A program made the translations under genes and the position numbers. The notes under the pieces were generated by a model. It was given only the letters and a program-made list of their open reading frames with translations, was not told where the DNA came from and ran no database searches. Shown here piece by piece: positions 1,604-26,039 of a stretch of DNA of 64,000 nt (its first letter is position 1; each line of letters starts with the position of its first letter). The DNA comes from Bacteroidota bacterium (GTDB lineage: Bacteria; Bacteroidota; Bacteroidia; UKL13-3): contig JAIXWD010000005.1 in the NCBI GenBank assembly GCA_027482225.1, positions 128,957-192,956 of the forward strand, read 5' to 3'.

Positions 1604-3541
1604 TTATCGTCCTTTATAATCGGTGCTTAATACCCTAAAAGTTGTTCTTCTGTTCTCTTGATGTTGGCCTTCATTACACTCAACTCCATCTGCACACTCA
1701 TTAATTAATTTACTTTCTCCATAACCCACAGCAGTTAAACGTGGTTTTGCAATTCCCTTTTTAAGTAAATAATCAACGCAACTTTGTGCCCGCCTCTGAC
1801 TAAGCTTGAGGTTATATGCTTCATCAGCCCTACTATCTGTATGCGAAGCCAGCTCGATGGTAATGGTGGGGTTGTTTTTCAAGATTAATACCATCGAATC
1901 TAACACGCGAGCAGCTTCTGGTCTAATATCAAACTTATCTAAATCATAATAAATTCCTTGTAAGGTAAACTCAACACCTTGATCAGGTATTGGATTTAAG
2001 TATAAAGTCAATTCAATGGTTGTATCAGCTTTAATATTTTGAGATGATACAGTAAGTGGTGTACTCTTGAAAAACTTTTCTTTGGCAGCGCTTAATTCTA
2101 TATTTTGATTGAGGTCCAATTCTGACACAAAATTCCCATTAACATCCGTTTTAACCAATTTTATGGGCATGTTTGATGTAGCCGCAGATACTTCGGCATT
2201 AGCCAAAGGTGTATTATCCTCTTGATTAATTATTTTACCTTTTACTAGAAATACAAACGGCTTAACACTTAAGCTATATATATCATCATCGCCTAGTCCT
2301 CCTTCGCGGTTACTAGTAAAATATGCGAATGGTTTTTGTGGTTCAGTTTGATTACCCCAAAAATTAATTCCAAAATCGTCTGCTCCACTATTTATAGGAC
2401 TTTTTAAATTAATGGCTTTTGTAAATCCACCAACAGAATCTATGGTATAAAATAAATCTAAACCACCCATACCAAAATGACCCTTACTGGCAAAATATAT
2501 TTTCCCATCAGGGTGAATAGCGGGGAACATTTCGTCCTCTGTACTATTAACATTTGGACCTAAATTAACAGGAATGCCCCATTTGCCAGTTAATGGGTTA
2601 TGGTTAATGTAATAAATATCTTTTTCGCCAATACTTCCGGGCATGTTACTTGCAAAATACAAACGTTTCATATCTGAAGTAAATGCGGGATGACCAACAC
2701 TAAAACTATCACTACAAAATGGCAATACTTGTGCTGAACTCCACTGGTTATTTTGCTTATAGCTTACATATATTTTACAATTCATTCCTTTACCATCTAA
2801 GCCATTACATTGAGTAAAATACATGGTTGTATTAGTGCTATCAATCCAAGCTACACCCTCGTTATAATTGCTGTTAATTAAACCATTTGGTTTAGTAACA
2901 GTGCCAAATGAATTTTCATTGATATTGCTTTGAAAAATGTCTGCACACTTTTGTCCAGTCCATTCAAAAATAATATTTCCTGTAGCCTCTGTTCTTGATG
3001 AACTCCAATATATTTTTCCATCAGATAGAAAAGGAGCATAGTCGCTGTATACCGTGTTTAAAGATTTAACATTCTCTACCGAAAATTTTAACGGATTTAA
3101 CTTCCAATCACCAGCAATTTTGCATGCTTCTACTTCGCGTTTTGCCTCAGCATCATTTGGCATTTCGAATAAATAATCGTTAAATTGTCTTGCAGCATCT
3201 CCATATCGCTCATAGTTTTTTAATAGCAAGCCATAAGAGTATAAAATTTTAGGATCAGGATATTTGGTATTTATTAATTTTTCATACCACTCAAAAGCTT
3301 GCTTAAAGTTATTACTCAGTCTATAACTCTCGGCTATTTTAAAATTTATCGTTGCTTGTTGTTCTTCGTCTTTAACTTTAGAGTAAATTTTTTTATAAGA
3401 GGTTGCTGCCGAATTATATTTTTTGTTCATAAATAGAACATCAGCTTTTTGTATCTCAATGTCAATAGGAGTTACAGTAGTTGTTTGTGCGATAGCATTT
3501 AAAAAAAAACAAAATAAAAACAAAAGTATGGATACACGCAT
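1604..3541 (-). CDS. PorE-like OmpA-family protein (TPR, PD40 propeller, CRD, OmpA)
   Basis: 645 residues. In order: signal peptide (1-19, cut after IAQ), TPR-type helices (about 25-140), a WD40-like PD40 beta-propeller (about 165-420, with repeated phrases such as IYFASKG and DDDIYSLS), a carboxypeptidase-regulatory-like beta domain (about 430-510), and an OmpA C-terminal peptidoglycan-binding domain with a SHTDSR motif and an NRRT ending. This domain order is that of PorE, the T9SS accessory protein thought to tether the secretion machine to peptidoglycan. It has a type I signal peptide rather than a lipobox, unlike its neighbour at 3830-5878. A TAGCTTTG -7 element lies 7 bases before the start. 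Whether it serves T9SS or only shares its architecture cannot be decided here. Confidence 0.85.
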   Translation of the reverse strand: MRVSILLFLFCFFLNAIAQTTTVTPIDIEIQKADVLFMNKKYNSAATSYKKIYSKVKDEEQQATINFKIAESYRLSNNFKQAFEWYEKLINTKYPDPKILYSYGLLLKNYERYGDAARQFNDYLFEMPNDAEAKREVEACKIAGDWKLNPLKFSVENVKSLNTVYSDYAPFLSDGKIYWSSSRTEATGNIIFEWTGQKCADIFQSNINENSFGTVTKPNGLINSNYNEGVAWIDSTNTTMYFTQCNGLDGKGMNCKIYVSYKQNNQWSSAQVLPFCSDSFSVGHPAFTSDMKRLYFASNMPGSIGEKDIYYINHNPLTGKWGIPVNLGPNVNSTEDEMFPAIHPDGKIYFASKGHFGMGGLDLFYTIDSVGGFTKAINLKSPINSGADDFGINFWGNQTEPQKPFAYFTSNREGGLGDDDIYSLSVKPFVFLVKGKIINQEDNTPLANAEVSAATSNMPIKLVKTDVNGNFVSELDLNQNIELSAAKEKFFKSTPLTVSSQNIKADTTIELTLYLNPIPDQGVEFTLQGIYYDLDKFDIRPEAARVLDSMVLILKNNPTITIELASHTDSRADEAYNLKLSQRRAQSCVDYLLKKGIAKPRLTAVGYGESKLINECADGVECNEGQHQENRRTTFRVLSTDYKGR

Positions 3542-3605: not shown

Positions 3606-3636
3606 AAAAGGACGACTCGTTAACAGAGTCGTCCTT
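3606..3636 (-). terminator. Hairpin terminator read on the minus strand
   Basis: AAGGACGACTC (3608-3618) pairs perfectly with GAGTCGTCCTT (3626-3636) across a 7-base loop. On the minus strand the stem is followed by a T run (the A run at 3603-3609 on the plus strand). It lies upstream of the gene at 1604-3541 and is separated from the preceding gene by another terminator at 3778-3809. Confidence 0.8.
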
Positions 3637-3829: not shown

Positions 3830-5878
3830 TTACCTTCTTGGTGTAGGTGTAGTTCCTGGTTTAGCTCCTGGTTTTGTTGTTCCAGGTTTTGCTTTAAGAT
3901 CAACAGGTACTTCTTTAGGTTTAGGACGGTAGTCGTTACCTAATAATTTAACCGTTGTTCTACGATTCATTTGATGCTCTTCTTCAGTACATTGGCGTTT
4001 TACATAGCTACCTTCACAAGCACAATCATTAACTAATTTACTTTCGCCATAACCTTTTGCTACTAAACGAGCCGAGTCGATACCTTGACGAATAATATAT
4101 GAAACGGCAGAATCTGCACGTCTTTGTGATAGATTTTCATTGTATGCAGAATCTGCACGACAATCCGTATGAGAACCTAATTCAATGCGTACCTTTGGAT
4201 AACGATTTAAAGTAATTACTAATGAGTCTAATATTCTTGCAGCATCAGGACGAATACTAGCTTTATCCAAATCATAATAAATACCTTCTACTTTAATGGC
4301 ATTTTCATAATCAAAAGGATTTAAATCTAAATCTTGAACCAAATCAGTAGATACATCTAAACCTTTTGTAGTTTGAAATGCAATCTTACTATCATAATAA
4401 TCTTCGTGCGAACCATACAATTCAACATCTGATTTAGGCTTTAAATTTATTTTGTATGATCCTGCAGCATCTGTTTTAACAACAATTTTTCCAGTATCAA
4501 CACTTGTAGTTAAAGTAATAAAAGTATTTGCAAGTATTTGCTTTGTTTTTACATCACGTGCAACACCACTTAATGTAAACACCAGAGGATCCATGTAAAA
4601 ACGCCAAATATCATCTTGACCTTTTGTGCCTTCACGGTTACTAGCTAAATAACCACTTTCTTTATCTTTTGATAGTATAATTGAAAAGTCGTCACCACCT
4701 GAATTTATTGGTGATTTCATGTTTACAGGAGTACCCCAATCTGTTGTTGAGCCAGTAGTATAAAAAATATCCATAGCTCCTATACCTGTATGGCCGTTTG
4801 ATGAAAAGTATAATGTTCCATCTTCATGTATAAATGGATAAACTTCATCTTTGTCTGTATTAACTGTTGGACCAAGGTTAACCGGATCACCCCAAGTTTT
4901 GCTGCGTTTACTATATGTTACAAACCAAATGTCTTTTCCTCCCTCGCCTCCAGGCATATCTGAAGAGAAATACATGATTTGATTATCTTTTGATAATGAC
5001 GGGTGCCCACTATTGAATGAATCAGAGGAGAATTCTAATGGTTTAATCTCAGTCCACTCTTGCCCTGATAGCGTTGCTGTCCAAATACGGCAGAACTTTC
5101 CTTTTCCATCTTTGCCGTTACATTGTGTGAAATACATAATTCCACCTTTGTTATCAAAAGCAACAGTACCATCGTTATAGGGTGAGTTTACCTTATCTTT
5201 ATCAACCAAAGTAGGTATTTCATATTTAATACTATTTGGATTTTTCTTATCTACTTTGTATACCACCTTATAAACATCCGTAAAAAAGTTTGCAGTCCAA
5301 CCATATGCTTTATTGCTTGCACCTTTCTCCCTATCACTAGTAAAAAAGAGTTGGTCCTTTTTGTAGAACATTGGCGCAAAATCACTCCATTTACTGTTAA
5401 TTGACTTAACGTTCTCAATCTTATAACGGGTTTTTTCGTTTTTCCATTTCAAAGCCAATTCACAACCACGAATTTTGCTGTCAACTTTAGTATCAGCTGG
5501 GGCAAGCTTTTTATAGTTATTATATTCAATAATTGCTTCAGAAAAACGGCCTTGAGACTTAATACTCTCGGCAAGTTTAAGCTGTGCATCAACATTTTTA
5601 GGATCAGCCTTCACTGTTTTTTTATACCAACCTTCAGCATTTTTCATGTCGTTGGCCATGTAATAACACTCTGCAGTTTGAAAGCATGATTCGTTTTTCT
5701 CGTCTTTGTTTTTAGTCTTGCTATACACAGCCTTGTAGTTTTCACCAGCTACTGCATACTCCTTTTTTGCTAAAGCCTCACGAGCGGCTTGCATCGAACC
5801 TTTTTTGGCTCCACACGACAACATTGTTGAGGTAAGTATAATGGCAAGAAAAGAGAAAATAATATTGCTTTTTTTCAT
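3830..5878 (-). CDS. porE: PorE-like OmpA-family lipoprotein (TPR, PD40 propeller, CRD, OmpA)
   Basis: 682 residues. The N-terminus has a lysine start, a hydrophobic core and the lipobox LSCG with Cys 22, so it is a predicted lipoprotein. It then shows TPR helices (about 30-140), a PD40 propeller (about 160-430, phrases such as IMYFSSDMPGG and DDIWRF), a carboxypeptidase-regulatory-like domain (about 435-520), and an OmpA C-terminal domain with SHTDCR and NRRTTVKL. A Pro/Lys-rich tail of about 30 residues (KPGTTKPG repeats) follows. Lipoprotein plus this domain order matches PorE of the type IX secretion system, which links PorP to peptidoglycan. It is a clear paralogue of the next gene downstream, from which it is separated by two terminators. 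The symbol is by architecture and not by proven orthology. Confidence 0.85.
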   Translation of the reverse strand: MKKSNIIFSFLAIILTSTMLSCGAKKGSMQAAREALAKKEYAVAGENYKAVYSKTKNKDEKNESCFQTAECYYMANDMKNAEGWYKKTVKADPKNVDAQLKLAESIKSQGRFSEAIIEYNNYKKLAPADTKVDSKIRGCELALKWKNEKTRYKIENVKSINSKWSDFAPMFYKKDQLFFTSDREKGASNKAYGWTANFFTDVYKVVYKVDKKNPNSIKYEIPTLVDKDKVNSPYNDGTVAFDNKGGIMYFTQCNGKDGKGKFCRIWTATLSGQEWTEIKPLEFSSDSFNSGHPSLSKDNQIMYFSSDMPGGEGGKDIWFVTYSKRSKTWGDPVNLGPTVNTDKDEVYPFIHEDGTLYFSSNGHTGIGAMDIFYTTGSTTDWGTPVNMKSPINSGGDDFSIILSKDKESGYLASNREGTKGQDDIWRFYMDPLVFTLSGVARDVKTKQILANTFITLTTSVDTGKIVVKTDAAGSYKINLKPKSDVELYGSHEDYYDSKIAFQTTKGLDVSTDLVQDLDLNPFDYENAIKVEGIYYDLDKASIRPDAARILDSLVITLNRYPKVRIELGSHTDCRADSAYNENLSQRRADSAVSYIIRQGIDSARLVAKGYGESKLVNDCACEGSYVKRQCTEEEHQMNRRTTVKLLGNDYRPKPKEVPVDLKAKPGTTKPGAKPGTTPTPRR

Positions 5879-17416: not shown

Positions 17417-20400
17417 CTATTTTAAGGTACGTTTTACCTCCACAATTTCATATGCTTCTATCATATCTCCCACTCTAATATCATTAAAATTATTAAAGTT
17501 CAATCCGCACTCGTAACCATAAGCTACTTCTTTCATATCGTCTTTAAATCGTTTTAATGAAGCCAACTCACCTGTATGAATTACTACACCATCGCGTATG
17601 ATTCGTACTTTAGAGTTACGGAATATTTTACCCTCGGTAACATAGCATCCTGCAACTGTACCCACTTTAGTAATTTTAAATACTTCACGTATTTCCACAT
17701 TACCAGTAATTTTTTCCTCTTCTTTAGGAGCCAACATGCCTTCCATTGCATCTTTAATTTGTGCAATAGCATCATAAATAATACTGTATAAACGAATATC
17801 AATTGCTTCAACTTCGGCTAACTTACGTGCTTGTGGAGAAGGGCGAACCTGGAATCCGATTACGATTGCATCTGAAGCAGAAGCTAACAATACATCGCTC
17901 TCTGAAATTTGACCAACTCCTTTATAAATTACATTAATTGCAACTTCCTCGGTTGATAATTTAATTAACGAATCACTTAACGCTTCTACTGAACCATCAA
18001 CGTCACCTTTAACAATAACTTTAAGTTCTTTAAAGTTACCAATAGCCAATCGTCTACCAATTTCATCAAGGGTAATGTGTTTTTGTGTGCGTATACCTTG
18101 TTCGCGTTGTAGTTGCGATCGTTTATTACTAATTTCTTTTGCTTCTTGTTCTGATTTGGTTACCAAAAACTTATCACCAGCTTGTGGTGCACCATCAAAA
18201 CCTAATAATACAACAGGAGTTGAAGGACCTGCAATGGTCATTTTTTTACCACGCTCATCAAACATAGCCTTAACCTTACCACTATGTGTTCCAGCCAAAA
18301 TAGGATCACCTATTCTTAGCGTACCAGATTGTACCATTACAGTTGTTGTAATACCGCGGCCTTTATCTAAAGTTGCCTCAATTACACTACCCACTGCGCG
18401 TTTATCAGGATTGGCTTTAAGATTTAACATTTCAGATTCTAGCAATACTTTTTCAAGTAAAGAATCAATGTTTAAACCTTTTTTGGCTGAAATTTCTTGA
18501 CATTGATATTTACCTCCCCATTCTTCAACCAAAATATTCATTGCTGATAATTGTTCACGAATTTTATCAGCATTAGCACCATCACGGTCTATTTTGTTAA
18601 TTGCAAATACTATTGGTACGCCTGCTGCCAAGGAATGGCTAATTGCCTCTTTGGTTTGTGGCATTACACTATCATCAGCTGCAATAACAATAATTACGAT
18701 ATCTGTTATTTTGGCACCACGTGCACGCATTGCTGTAAAAGCCTCGTGACCCGGAGTATCTAAGAAAGTTACATGTTTACCGTTAGCTAAAGTAACCTCA
18801 TAAGCTCCAATATGCTGCGTAATACCACCTGCTTCACCAGCAATAACATTTGCTTTACGTATATAATCTAATAAAGATGTTTTACCATGATCTACGTGAC
18901 CCATTACTGTTACAATTGGTGGACGAGAAACCAAATCCTCTTCAGCATCCACTTCCTCTTCAATGGTTTCAATTAAATCAGTGGTTACAAATTCTACTTC
19001 AAAACCAAACTCCTCAGCTACAATTGCAATCGTTTCAGCATCTAAACGCTGATTTATACTTACCATTAATCCTAACGACATACATGCCGAGATGATATTG
19101 GTAATAGGTAAATCCATCATTTGAGCCAACTCGTTGGCCGTTACAAATTCTGTTACCTTGATTTTCTTCTGTCCTTCAAGCTCCATCGCCACCTCTTCAC
19201 GTCTATCGGCAGCAGCATCACGTTTTTGTTTACGGATTTTACTACGAACCTGGCCAATGTTTTGTTGGCCATTAATACGTGCTAAGGTTGCTTTTAATTT
19301 ATCTTGAATTTCCTTATCGGTGATTTCCGCCTTTTCAGTTGGTTGCCCAGTACGTGGTTGAAAGTTTCCTTTTCCGCCTTTGTTAAAAGGTGGGCGTGGT
19401 GCATTGGGATTAGTTCCTGCAGGACCACGGTTGTTATTGCCTTGATAACCACCCCCAGGGCGGTTTCCACCACCTTGGTTATTTCCACCAGGACCACGGT
19501 TATTGTTTCCTTGATAACCACCACGATTTTGAGGTGGAGGATTAGTTCCTTCAACCTTTTTAATATCTATGTTGTCGCTTCCGCCAACAAAGTTTTTTCT
19601 GCGTCTTTTCTTTTTGTTTGTGTCATCACTACTTGCAACAGGCTGAGGCTTTTTAGGCTGTTCAACTGGAAGTTGAATTTTTCCCATAACCTTCAAACCA
19701 GAAAGTTTTTCGTAGTTTGGTTCGGTTACTTGAGCCTCATCGTTTTCAACTGAGGGTGCAACAGCTATTGTTTCAACATTATCCTCAATTATCTTTATTT
19801 CGTGAACTATTTCAGGCGTAGATTCGATTGGTTTTATAACCTCTTCTTTTTTAGTTTCCGCAGTAACTGTTTTTGCCTTTGATTTCTTATCTTCTATCTT
19901 TTTTTGTGCTTTCGGAGATGCGATTTTCTGCGGTGGTGTTTGTTCACTTTTTTTCTTTTTCTTGGTGTTAAAGTCTTCTAGATTAATTTTACCTAAAACT
20001 TTTAATCCCCCTTTTTCTTCGCTTGTATCAGTTTCTTTAATTTCAGCAACTTCTTCCTTTTTAGATTCAATTGTAGGAACAGGCTTTACATCTTCTATTA
20101 ATGGTATTGAGTCTTCATTTTTAGGCTCAATTGGTTTTACTGAAGTAGTGGTTGGTGCTAACCCAGATTTAATTAAAATACCGTCATCATAATCTTCATC
20201 TTCAGTTAAAGATTCTTTCTTAACTGTGGGTTGAACAACTACTTCTTCTTTTTTAACTTTGGCTTTGATTAATGCTTTCGCATCATCTTTAACTTTTTTG
20301 TCCGACTGGAAAGCACCAAGTAACACTTGGTACATTTCACCAGTGATTTTGGTCGTAGGCTTATTTTCCACCATAAAACCTTTTTTGGCTAGGTGTTCAA

Positions 20401-20473
20401 CTAGGGTTTGTATCCCTACGTTAAGCTCTTTTACTACTGCGTTTAAACGGACAGATTCTTTGTTTTCGCTCAT
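17417..20473 (-). CDS. infB: Translation initiation factor IF-2
   Basis: 1018 residues. It brings initiator tRNA to the ribosome with GTP. Order: an N-terminal IF2_N-like helical module (1-55), a Lys/Glu-rich linker (60-300) in which [10 protein letters not shown] (155-164) recurs as [10 protein letters not shown] (259-268), a Gly/Asn/Arg-rich stretch (317-371) with [11 protein letters not shown] twice, a second IF2_N module (about 438-500), the G domain with GHVDHGKT (525-532), DTPGHEAF and NKID, then domains II-IV. Last gene of rimP-nusA-infB. The 121-base gap from nusA holds two inverted repeats. The long basic linker is usual for Bacteroidota. Confidence 0.98.
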
Positions 20474-20594: not shown

Positions 20595-21830
20595 CTATTC
20601 AAATTCTGATTGCAATATCCTGCGAACCTCATTTACTGTCTCTTCTTCTAACTCAGTTCTACGAACTAAATCTGCAACTGTTAAATTAAGTACGCTACGA
20701 GCGGTATCACAACCAATATTTTTAAACTCGTCTAAAATCCAACCATCAATTTCATCTGCAAATTCGTCTAAATCAATATCACCTTCATCTTCATCACTTT
20801 CACGATAAACATCAATCTCCATGCCTGCTAGTTTACCAGCAAGTTTAATGTTATGACCTCCTTTACCAATTGCTAATGAAACTTGATCAGGTTTTAAATA
20901 AACAGCTGCTCTGCGACTTTCTTCGTCTAATTTAATTGATGAAACTTTAGCAGGGCTTAATGCGCGTTGGATAAGCAATTGTAAATTTGATGTGAAGTTA
21001 ATTACGTCAATATTTTCGTTGCGTAACTCTCTTACAATACCGTGTATCCTCGATCCTTTCATACCTACGCATGCACCTACTGGATCAATTCTATCATCAA
21101 AGCTTTCAACTGCAACTTTGGCACGCTCACCTGGCTCACGAACTATTTTCTTTACTGCTATAATACCATCAATAATTTCAGGCACTTCCATCTCGAATAA
21201 ACGTTCTAAGAAAACTGGCGCTATACGACTAAGTAATATACGTGGAGAGCCATTGTACATTTCCACTTTTAACACAACTGCTTTTATTGCATCACCTTTT
21301 TTGTAATGATCTGCAGGAATCATTTCTGTTTTTGGCAATAGCAGTTCGTTACCCTCGTCATCCAAAATCATGATTTCTTTTTTCCAAATTTGGTATACCT
21401 CTCCGCTAATTACCTCTCCAACTCTATCCTTATATTTACGGTATAATTCGTCTTTTTCAAGTTCAAGAATTTTACCCATTAAGGTTTGACGAGCCGCCAA
21501 AATAGCTCTACGCCCAAAACTTTCCAGGGTTACTTCCTCCGTAACCTCTTCACCAACCTCAAAATCGGGCTCGATTTTACGTGCTTCAGCAAGTGATATT
21601 TCTTTACGGATATCTTCTACTTCACCATCATGAACAATTTCACGGTTATGCCAGATTTCCAAATCCCCGCTGCTATCGTTAACAATTACACTAAAAGACT
21701 CATCACTGTTGTACTTCTTACGAAGCATGCTACGAAATACGTCTTCTAATACGCGCTGCATTGTTGCGCGATCTATGTTTTTAAATTCTTTAAACTCACT
21801 AAATGAGTCAATTAAGCCAGAACTATGCAT
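20595..21830 (-). CDS. nusA: Transcription elongation/termination factor NusA
   Basis: 411 residues. Order: N-terminal RNA polymerase-binding domain (about 1-125), S1 domain (about 135-200, GEVISGEVYQIWKKEIMILDDEGNELLLPKTEMIP), KH1 and KH2 with GACVGMKGSRIHGIVREL and LAIGKGGHNIKLAGKL, an acidic linker (DEDEGDIDLDEFADEID), and one helix-hairpin-helix (LDEFKNIGCDTARSVLNLTVADLVRRTELEEE). It lacks the two C-terminal acidic repeats of the 495-residue E. coli protein. It starts 25 bases after rimP. In E. coli NusA acts back on its own operon leader; a hairpin in the rimP leader here could be the target. Confidence 0.98.
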   Translation of the reverse strand: MHSSGLIDSFSEFKEFKNIDRATMQRVLEDVFRSMLRKKYNSDESFSVIVNDSSGDLEIWHNREIVHDGEVEDIRKEISLAEARKIEPDFEVGEEVTEEVTLESFGRRAILAARQTLMGKILELEKDELYRKYKDRVGEVISGEVYQIWKKEIMILDDEGNELLLPKTEMIPADHYKKGDAIKAVVLKVEMYNGSPRILLSRIAPVFLERLFEMEVPEIIDGIIAVKKIVREPGERAKVAVESFDDRIDPVGACVGMKGSRIHGIVRELRNENIDVINFTSNLQLLIQRALSPAKVSSIKLDEESRRAAVYLKPDQVSLAIGKGGHNIKLAGKLAGMEIDVYRESDEDEGDIDLDEFADEIDGWILDEFKNIGCDTARSVLNLTVADLVRRTELEEETVNEVRRILQSEFE

Positions 21831-21855: not shown

Positions 21856-22320
21856 TTATTTAAATGATAAAATTACACTTGCTTCAACTATTTCAGCAAA
21901 TGAAATTGTTTGTTCAGGTGCATTAATGTAACCTTTTTTCTTGTCTTTCAATGCTATAGTTATAGCATCTTCGGTTGCAGCAACTAATTTACCTGTCACT
22001 TCTGTTTCTGCTAGTAATTTTACCAACAACTCTCTGCCAACATGTTTTGGATATTGACGAAATTTTAGCAATGGTCTATCCGCTCCTGGTGATGAAACTT
22101 CTAAATAGTAAGGCTCTTCCCCATAATTTTGCTCATCAAGTTTGTCTGATAAATGGCGAGACAATTTTTGACAAGCAGGTATATCAACACCTTGATCACC
22201 ATCGATTAATATACATATTTTGTCACTACCTATTTTGGTTTCTATATCAACCAAAAACAACTCTTGCGGCAAAAAAGCTTCTGTCCATTCTTTAATTTGC
22301 GATACAATCTCCATGTTCAT
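21856..22320 (-). CDS. rimP: Ribosome maturation factor RimP
   Basis: 154 residues. It acts in 30S subunit assembly. It shows the typical N-terminal alpha/beta domain (EELFLVDIETKIGSDKICILIDGDQGVDIPACQKLSRHLS, read in parts), the EVSSPGADRPL signature (YYLEVSSPGADRPLLKFRQY-like), and a C-terminal SH3-like domain ending in the EIVEASV strand. First gene of rimP-nusA-infB. Two Met codons lie at the start (22320 and 22314) and either could be used. A consensus promoter and a short leader with a terminator-like hairpin lie directly ahead. Confidence 0.96.
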   Translation of the reverse strand: MNMEIVSQIKEWTEAFLPQELFLVDIETKIGSDKICILIDGDQGVDIPACQKLSRHLSDKLDEQNYGEEPYYLEVSSPGADRPLLKFRQYPKHVGRELLVKLLAETEVTGKLVAATEDAITIALKDKKKGYINAPEQTISFAEIVEASVILSFK

Positions 22321-22328
22321 TATTAGGT

Positions 22329-22358
22329 AAAAAGAGAGGGGACTTTTGGGGTCCCCTC
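22329..22358 (-). promoter_or_regulatory. Attenuator-like hairpin in the rimP leader
   Basis: GAGGGGAC (minus strand, 22358 to 22351) pairs perfectly with GTCCCCTC (22343 to 22336) over a 7-base loop and is followed by TCTTTTT on the minus strand. The shape is that of an intrinsic terminator. It lies between the rimP promoter and the rimP start, about 9 bases before the ATG, where no upstream gene exists to terminate. Confidence 0.7.
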
Positions 22359-22384
22359 ATCAACTAATTTTCAATAAAGTATTG

Positions 22385-22415
22385 CAAATATAGGTTTGTT
22401 TTTTATATATGCAAA
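22385..22415 (-). promoter_or_regulatory. Promoter of rimP-nusA-infB
   Basis: Minus strand TTTG (22412-22415), 19 bases, TATATTTG (22385-22392): exact consensus. Expected start near 22379, giving a leader of about 59 bases that contains the hairpin. Confidence 0.85.
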
Positions 22416-22838: not shown

Positions 22839-25800
22839 ATGAATCGTTTTAACTTAGTAAATAACGTTTTAGGATGGATAACCTTCGTTATTGCACTGGT
22901 AACTTACACCTTGACATTAGAGCCAACCGTAAGCTTTTGGGATTGTGGTGAGTTCATCTCAGCATCTTTCAGATTACAAATTTGTCACCCACCAGGTGCA
23001 CCATTATTTTTAATATTAGGGCGTTTGTTCTCATTATTTGCTGGTGGCGATGTAACACAGGTTGCATTTTGGGTAAATATGGTATCAGCTACTACAAGTG
23101 CCTTGTGCGTTATGTTTACCTTCTGGACAATTACACATCTAGGTCGTAAGTTAATTATTAAGTCGGGTGATGCATTAAGTGTACAACAGATTTTGGCTAT
23201 AAGCGTATCAGGATTAGTTGGTGCTTTAGCATTAACTTGGAGTGATACATTTTGGTTTTCTGCCGTTGAAGCAGAAGTATACGCATCATCTAGTTTTTTT
23301 ACTACATTAACGTTTTGGTGTATTTTAAAATGGGAAAACAATGCCGATGAAAAAGGCAGTGAACGCTGGTTGGTATTAATTGCTTATTTAATAGGATTAG
23401 CTATTGGCGTCCATTTATTGAGTATACTAGTTATACCTTCAATTGTTTACGTTTATTATTTCCGTAAAAACAAATTTACTCGTGGCGGATTTATTAAAGC
23501 CACTATGGTAGCTTTAGGAGCAATTGCTATTGTTCAATTTGGTATTATTCCGGGCATGCCATCATTAGCAACTAAATTTGATTACATATTTGTAAACTCT
23601 TTTGGTACAAGTTTTAATACTGGCGCATTTTTTATGCTTTTTGTTATTGCAGGTACTTTGGCTGCTGCAATACACTTCACACAAACCGAAAGCAAAACCA
23701 GTTTTTACATTGCTGCTGCATTATATGCCATCATGGTATTGGCCACATTCTCTCTTAACCCATCCGCATCAGGTATTATTTTCTGGGGCGCGATAACCGC
23801 ATTGTTGTATTATTATGTTATTAAGAATAATGCTTCCAAAAGTGTAGTTAATGTTGCCATCTTAAGTGTAACATTTATTATTATAGGATACTCATCTTAT
23901 GCAATGGTGTTAATACGCAGTAATGCAAAACCACCTATAAACATGAATGCTCCTGACAATCCGTTTAGTTTACTATCTTACTTAAACCGTGAGCAGTATG
24001 GTGAAAACCCGTTGGTATACGGACAGTATTTTTATGCTAAGGTAATTGACGAGAAAAAAGGTGCAATGACCTATGCAAAAGGAGACGGAAAATACGAAGA
24101 ATCGGGCGAAAAAGTTGAGCGTATTTATGACCCTAAAGATTGTACTATTTTCCCGCGAATGTGGGCAGATAGACCCGATTATATTCAATCGTATCGCCAA
24201 TGGGAAAATATACCTGAAGGTAAAAAAGCAACCTTTGCCAAAAACATTGATTTCTTGCTAAGTTACCAAATGGGCTTTATGTACTGGCGTTATTTTGCTT
24301 GGAATTTTATTGGCAGACAAAACGATGATCAAGGATTTGGTGATATTACTAGAGGTAACTGGATTAGTGGTGTGACATTTTTAGATGCTATGCGCTTAGG
24401 TCCTCAAGACAATATTCCTGATACTATTAAAAATAATAAAGCACGAAATACTTATTATTTCTTACCACTGTTATTAGGTTTGATTGGTTTGATTTATCAT
24501 TTCAAAAAATCAAAAGAAGATGCAACTGTTGTATTAACCTTGTTCTTGTTTACAGGTGCATTTATTATTCTATACCTAAACTTCCCGGCTCACCAACCAC
24601 GTGAACGCGATTATGCTTATGTTGGTTCATACCAAACCTTTATCATTTGGATTGGACTAGGTGTATTGGCATTAATTGATTGGTTAAGTAAAAAAATGAA
24701 TGCTACTATGGCAACAGGTGTTGCTTCTATAGCAACTATAGCAGGTGTACCTGTATTGATGGCCTCACAAAACTGGGATGATCATGATCGTAGTAATCGT
24801 TTTGCAGCACTAGATTTTGCTTACGATTACCTAAACTCTTGTGCCCCAAATGCGGTGTTATTTACTAATGGAGACAATGATACTTACCCATTATGGTATG
24901 CTCAAAATGTTGAAGGCATTCGTAGTGATATTAGGGTAATTAACTTAAGTTTATTAAATACGGATTGGTATGCAGATGCTTTAAAAACTAAAATATATGA
25001 CTCAGAACCGATACCATTTAGTATGGCTCCAAGTCAATACAAACAAGGTGTAAGAGATTATGTAATCTTCTATCAAAACCCAGAAGTGGAAAGACAATTT
25101 GGTATCAACCAAACCGATTTCTATCCTTTAAGCAGTATCATTAAGTTTATGACTGATGATACTGATCCTATGGCTAAGCTAAAATCAAACAGCGGTATGG
25201 AGTTTAGCTACTATCCAACCAAAAAATTCTATATACCTATTGATAAACAACATGTATTAAAGCAAGGTACAGTGCAAGCCAAAGATGCGAATATTATTGT
25301 TGATACCATGAAATGGGAAATTGGAAATGGTACTTTAATGAAAGCGGATTTGGTAGTGCTTGATATATTAGCAACCACCAATTGGACACGCCCTATTTAT
25401 TTTGCCATTACTACTGGAAGTGATGTTTATTTAAACATGATGGATTATTTCCAATTAGAAGGTTTAACATACCGCATTGTACCTATTAAAAATACAGATC
25501 CAGTAGAAGGTGGAACATACGGACACATCAACACAGATATTTTATATACTAACCTGGTTGAGAAGTTTAAGTGGGGCAATATGGATAAAGAAGGTGTATA
25601 TTTAGATGAAACCACTTTACGCCAAACACGTAATTTCCGTAATTTATTTTACCGTTTAGCAATGAAACTAGTAGCAGAAGGTGATAATACCCGTGCCATT
25701 AAAGCCATTGATCGTTGCATAGAAGTAATGCCTAAAAACACGGTTCCTTACGACATATTCATCATTCGTTTATCAGAGGCTTACTATGCAGCAGGAGCTC

Positions 25801-26039
25801 CAGAAAAAGCCAATACATTAATAAACGGCATGGTTAATCAAGCTATTGAAAAATACCAATACTATAGCAGATTTAAAGGTAGTAAGGCAAAAGGTGTAAG
25901 TACTGAGTTAGAAGAAAATACCAATATATTGATGTATGCGCAACAAGTAGCTCAATTTAACAAACAAGATGCATTGTTAAAAGATATACAAGCAAAATCT
26001 CAAAAGGTATTAGGAGCACAAATGCCTCCAATGCAGTAA
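22839..26039 (+). CDS. DUF2723 multi-pass membrane glycosyltransferase-like protein (GT117)
   Basis: 1066 residues. It begins with a membrane helix and the family signature [27 protein letters not shown] (read in parts; DCGEF is the key acidic loop, as in protein O-mannosyltransferases of the GT-C fold). About 12 hydrophobic segments fill residues 15-660, with the second conserved block [19 protein letters not shown] soluble region follows (about 690-920, [14 protein letters not shown]), then TPR-like helices (about 930-1040). The family is annotated as GT117 and is widespread in Bacteroidota, where protein O-glycosylation of exported proteins is common. Glycan transfer outside the cytoplasm is inferred. 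It has its own promoter and a GC-rich terminator, so it is a single-gene unit. Confidence 0.9.

Follow-up and report, generated by a model that had tools for sequence, protein, structure and literature searches.

A conserved terminator-type hairpin in the short rimP-nusA-infB leader of Bacteroidia, a probable attenuator of the operon

The window analyzed here, a 64,000-nt stretch of a Bacteroidota genome, carries the rimP-nusA-infB operon on its minus strand, preceded by a promoter of the Bacteroidota sigma-A type and by a very short leader in which a terminator-type hairpin is found. The features of the locus, in window coordinates, are the following.

17417..20473, minus strand: infB, 1018 aa, encoding IF2 (Pfam IF2_N, GTP_EFTU, IF-2)
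20595..21830, minus strand: nusA, 411 aa, encoding the candidate feedback factor (Pfam NusA_N, S1, KH_5, KH_2)
21856..22320, minus strand: rimP, 154 aa, first gene of the operon (Pfam RimP_N, DUF150_C)
22321..22380, minus strand: predicted 5′ leader of ∼60 nt, its start site inferred from the promoter
22329..22335, minus strand: U tract UCUUUUU, 3′ of the stem, predicted termination region from sequence
22336..22358, minus strand: 8-bp terminator-type hairpin GAGGGGAC-CCCAAAA-GUCCCCUC, kept in 107 of 107 leaders
22385..22415, minus strand: sigma-A type promoter, TTTG at 22415-22412, N19, TATATTTG at 22392-22385

A promoter of the form TTTG-N19-TATATTTG, a leader of about 60 nt and an 8-bp GC stem with a U run before rimP had all been described in an earlier, sequence-only reading of this DNA, and all are present on the minus strand. 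The stem-loop of the window (8 bp, −14.0 kcal/mol) is followed by the tail UCUUUUUACC and then by the rimP ATG at 22320 (−), and transcription is predicted to start at ∼22380 (−). The U tract does lie directly 3′ of the stem, with the small correction that the run, UCUUUUU, is broken by a C at its second position. It had also been stated that there is no upstream gene for the hairpin to stop, and this holds, since the gene on the other side of the leader (22839-26039) is on the plus strand and divergent from rimP, and on the minus strand no gene of the annotated type directly precedes the leader. A 22-codon open reading frame (22360-22292, minus strand), whose ATG adjoins the stem, runs through the hairpin into rimP. 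It was considered as a leader peptide and rejected, as such an ATG is shared by the window with close relatives, yet is present in only 14 of 107 leaders and is thus not conserved.

Single-sequence statistics are modest, and it is the comparative evidence that decides that the hairpin is not a product of chance. In 20,000 mononucleotide shuffles of the 65-nt leader, an 8-bp hairpin with six or more GC pairs and a T tract never arose, the leader hairpin was the sole site in a generic terminator scan of 3 kb (1.7 expected in shuffles), and the fold z-score of the 83-nt stretch containing it was −1.4. The genomic background was taken from the window and twelve further stretches, ∼300 kb with 242 open reading frames in all, in which 29 terminator-like hairpins are found at gene ends and two in 5′ leaders, those of rimP and at 3634. 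The latter hairpin (window 3634-3610, minus strand, GGACGACTC...GAGTCGTCC followed by T7) lies ∼70 nt before a minus-strand gene (1604-3541) that seems to encode an outer-membrane protein of the OmpA type, and a similar gene upstream of it (3830-5878, minus strand) has its own terminator at ∼3804-3783.

A comparison of the leader in related genomes, as had been proposed earlier, was made with leaders found through RimP matches within the same family and NusA matches across Bacteroidota. These gave 110 loci, three of which end before rimP, leaving 107 complete Bacteroidia rimP leaders, and four automatic hairpin assignments among them were corrected by eye. The hairpin and U tract are present in all 107, with the consensus GAGGGGAC-loop-GUCCCCUC-UUUU. 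Stem pairs 3-6 are complementary in every leader and the other four pairs in 100-106 of them, pair 1 is C-G in 99, and T is found at U-tract positions 1-4 in 103, 93, 106, and 99 leaders, respectively, while the loop varies in length, mostly from 3 to 7 nt. Of 105 leaders, 87 have a perfect copy of TAnnTTTG, a motif reported from F. psychrophilum as the −7 box recognized by its main sigma factor (PMC9723704), no more than 40 nt upstream of the stem, compared to 2.8 expected from shuffles. Across Bacteroidia rimP leaders the median distance is 18 nt from the −7 box to the stem and 16 nt from the end of the stem to the rimP start codon.

The stem varies in ways that preserve its pairing. Replacements in pairs 3-6 include AT, CG, and GT, and compensatory stems such as GGAGAC/GUCUCC, GGGAAC/GUUCCC, and GGGGGC/GCCCCC are found, as is an inverted stem, GAGCCCCGA/UCGGGGCUC, with a C-rich 5′ arm and a G-rich 3′ arm in two Daejeonella leaders (L049 and L061). 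In a gap-free subset of 32 leaders the covariation score was 0.126 versus 0.096 in shuffles, which carry no correction for relatedness, with 2 of 500 as high, and it was also above those of all slid versions. G-U pairs outnumber A-C pairs by 28 to 3 distinct cases, and because G-U is so much the commoner, selection acts on the sense-strand RNA. The 5′ arm is also strongly biased in composition, with 416 G and 3 C in pairs 3-6 of the leaders, counts that are inflated by relatedness, compared to 76 G and 107 C in the 5′ arms of 3′-end terminators in the genome of the window. Allowing for relatedness, this bias suggests that the stem may be recognized by its sequence as well as maintained by pairing.

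The specificity of the hairpin was assessed with a covariance model built from a 32-row alignment of leaders with loop-4 forms. Of the 59 family genomes that have rimP, 49 gave a match to the model at the rimP leader, and the leader was the top match in 41 of the 53 family genomes with any match. Six of the ten missed leaders belong to the set of 107 and do have the hairpin; a model built from loop-4 forms scores the other forms lower. When the search was extended to the phylum, 15 of the 17 best matches examined from genomes of the same class were at rimP, compared to none of the 13 best matches examined from other classes, and hence the claim is limited to the class Bacteroidia. A second site of a regulon was considered and rejected, as most of the other model matches examined in family genomes are terminators located between genes or at their ends, and the GGGGAC-N(3-12)-GUCCCC core occurs only once in the 2.7-Mb genome of the window. 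A known Rfam element at the site was likewise rejected, as no match exceeded chance even when the threshold was permissive. The Rfam model RF01770, which is 102 nt long and describes the tandem form of Gammaproteobacteria (E. coli metY-rimP t1/t2), scores 102 bits in E. coli, and at its gathering cut-off of 47 bits it had no match in the window or in the eight Bacteroidia loci searched; the matches listed in the genome of the window are elsewhere than the rimP leader and below the cut-off.

The hairpin appears able to terminate transcription. Leader hairpins have a median stability of −14.3 kcal/mol versus −15.2 kcal/mol for 3′-end terminators, and bidirectional terminators between convergent genes of relatives have nearly the same stem (for example AAAAAAGGGGACCUAAGUCCCCUUUUUU), which argues that such a stem is termination-competent. 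No means of switching it is apparent in the leader itself. A CCCC, TCCC or CTCC able to pair with the 5′ arm was found within 35 nt upstream in none of the 107 leaders, and the lack of such a C-rich partner, together with the rarity of the adjoining ATG, makes both a riboswitch-like switch and a leader peptide unlikely, which leaves a terminator whose leak is either fixed or set by elongation factors. Since the genes downstream are thought to be essential and would be silenced by a terminator of full efficiency, substantial readthrough is needed. An interruption of the U tract at position 5 is seen in 64 of the 107 leaders compared to 10 of 28 3′-end terminators from the same loci (p = 0.03), and for the longest T run the same kind of comparison gave p = 0.06. 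Weakness of the U tract was considered as proof of NusA dependence and rejected, as the difference is strong relative to the terminators of one genome but modest relative to matched loci. NusA-dependent terminators of B. subtilis tend to be suboptimal, whereas the leader hairpin of Bacteroidia is not weak.

The earlier proposal that the hairpin attenuates the operon was based on a terminator-shaped structure with no upstream gene, and this much stands, now with conservation and sense-strand selection behind it. Given the shape and position of the hairpin, its conserved U tract and a stability equal to that of gene-end terminators, transcription is probably terminated prematurely in the leader, attenuation being the most economical reading. 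The preferred interpretation, to which we assign a probability of roughly 0.7, is that the hairpin is a terminator-only attenuator of rimP-nusA-infB, the form that the rimP leader takes in Bacteroidia, probably with feedback by NusA. RNA polymerase would initiate ∼22 nt upstream of the hairpin, the GC hairpin would fold in the exit channel while the polymerase transcribes the U tract, and a fraction of complexes would release a short RNA of ∼50-55 nt without entering rimP-nusA-infB. As the leader has neither the room nor the sequence for an antiterminator, elongation factors most likely determine how much readthrough occurs. Three points make NusA the best candidate: its gene belongs to the operon, it has been proposed as the effector of rimP leaders, and in B. 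subtilis it regulates its own synthesis by stimulating termination in the leader of its operon, according to a review (Mondal 2016, per PMC12288461). An increase in NusA would then increase termination and so decrease NusA, RimP and IF2, and both this feedback and the dependence on NusA are plausible by analogy. In E. coli, transcripts of the operon increase when NusA-mediated termination is reduced (PMC6511841).

In 11 loci of the Bacteroidales type (L057, L058, L062, L064, L073, L085, L089, L092, L095, L102, and L103), the rimP operon begins with a tRNA-Gln(UUG) gene located 17-73 nt before the hairpin, and in these the TAnnTTTG promoter precedes the tRNA. The layout is the same as that of metY-rimP in E. 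coli, with a different tRNA.

An attenuator that responds to something other than NusA, such as RimP, NusG, IF2, nucleotide supply or another RNA-binding protein, or that simply passes a fixed fraction of polymerases, is a possibility of lesser weight. It would fit a stem sequence far more constrained than pairing needs, a hint of sequence-specific recognition to the extent that the G and C counts are not inflated by relatedness, and NusG too stimulates intrinsic terminators in B. subtilis (PMC8060035). However, NusA is a product of the operon and is backed by the precedent from B. subtilis, and the C-rich 5′ arm in both Daejeonella leaders indicates that a G-rich arm is not strictly needed. 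The hairpin might instead act without termination, as an element of mRNA stability or translation that protects the 5′ end from nucleases or controls ribosome access to rimP, as would fit a hairpin that in most leaders is close to the predicted 5′ end and ∼16 nt ahead of the start codon, but we consider this unlikely since conservation of U-tract positions 1-4 would be superfluous for such a role and the hairpin is internal in the 11 loci where it is downstream of a tRNA.

Those same loci, with tRNA-Gln 17-73 nt upstream on the same strand, would fit a hairpin that is the terminator of an upstream transcript, either the tRNA or an unannotated RNA, with incidental readthrough into rimP. This is very improbable, as the upstream gene in the window is divergent and the promoter abuts the hairpin, and most leaders have the TAnnTTTG box directly upstream with no gene in between. 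A perfect 8-bp inverted repeat just downstream of a promoter could also be a DNA operator that binds a repressor, but the spacing of its half-sites varies freely, mostly 3-7 nt, the G-U pairs break the DNA palindrome while keeping the RNA pair, and the T tract is on one side only, all of which make an operator scarcely credible.

If the terminator-only attenuator with NusA feedback is correct, autogenous attenuation of rimP-nusA-infB reaches the class Bacteroidia, where it takes a very short form that is easy to manipulate and escapes Rfam, and this leader would offer a defined place to test NusA-stimulated termination in a phylum in which the machinery of termination has been little studied. 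A more speculative extension, which we hold to be rather improbable, is a minimal class-wide sensor of NusA (or RimP) consisting of a promoter and one sequence-specific terminator hairpin, in which the protein would read the GGGGAC/GUCCCC arms directly while the RNA is leaving the polymerase, within ∼50 nt of initiation.

The Bacteroidia element belongs to the known rimP-leader kind and is not a new kind of element. The rimP-leader is the most widespread attenuator in the survey of Naville and Gautheret 2010, where NusA was proposed as its effector and where it is known in Firmicutes and Gammaproteobacteria (PMC2965389); the main text of that paper does not mention Bacteroidetes. The Bacteroidia leader shares with it the same operon, a lone terminator with no visible antiterminator, and a G-rich 5′ arm with a C-rich 3′ arm, closed by C-G and followed by a U stretch. 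The published form is GGGc...gCCC with a U stretch 4-130 nt before the gene (PMC2965389), from which the Bacteroidia stem GAGGGGAC/GUCCCCUC differs by one inserted A-U pair, and the Bacteroidia form is also distinguished by a hairpin that begins ∼18 nt downstream of the −7 box and by a leader ∼60 nt long. A structured, transcribed 5′ element upstream of rimP in F. psychrophilum, conserved in other Flavobacteriaceae and lacking an Rfam match, is listed in a single sentence that gives neither sequence nor mechanism (PMC9723704), and going by this description it is probably the same element.

The sequence-only reading had set the leader of the E. coli operon apart as different, and it is less distinct than was claimed, since the same operon there also has terminators before rimP, the last of which is a hairpin of the GGGC-UUUA-GGCCC-U7 type just before the start codon. 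The inverted stem of the two Daejeonella leaders resembles the upstream terminator of this same E. coli leader. With the nusA operon of B. subtilis the Bacteroidia locus shares an intrinsic terminator in the leader of an operon encoding NusA, and the two differ in that the leader is ∼180 nt in B. subtilis (PMC2965389) and ∼60 nt here, and in that the dependence on NusA is experimental in B. subtilis according to the review (Mondal 2016, per PMC12288461) and inferred for the leader of Bacteroidia.
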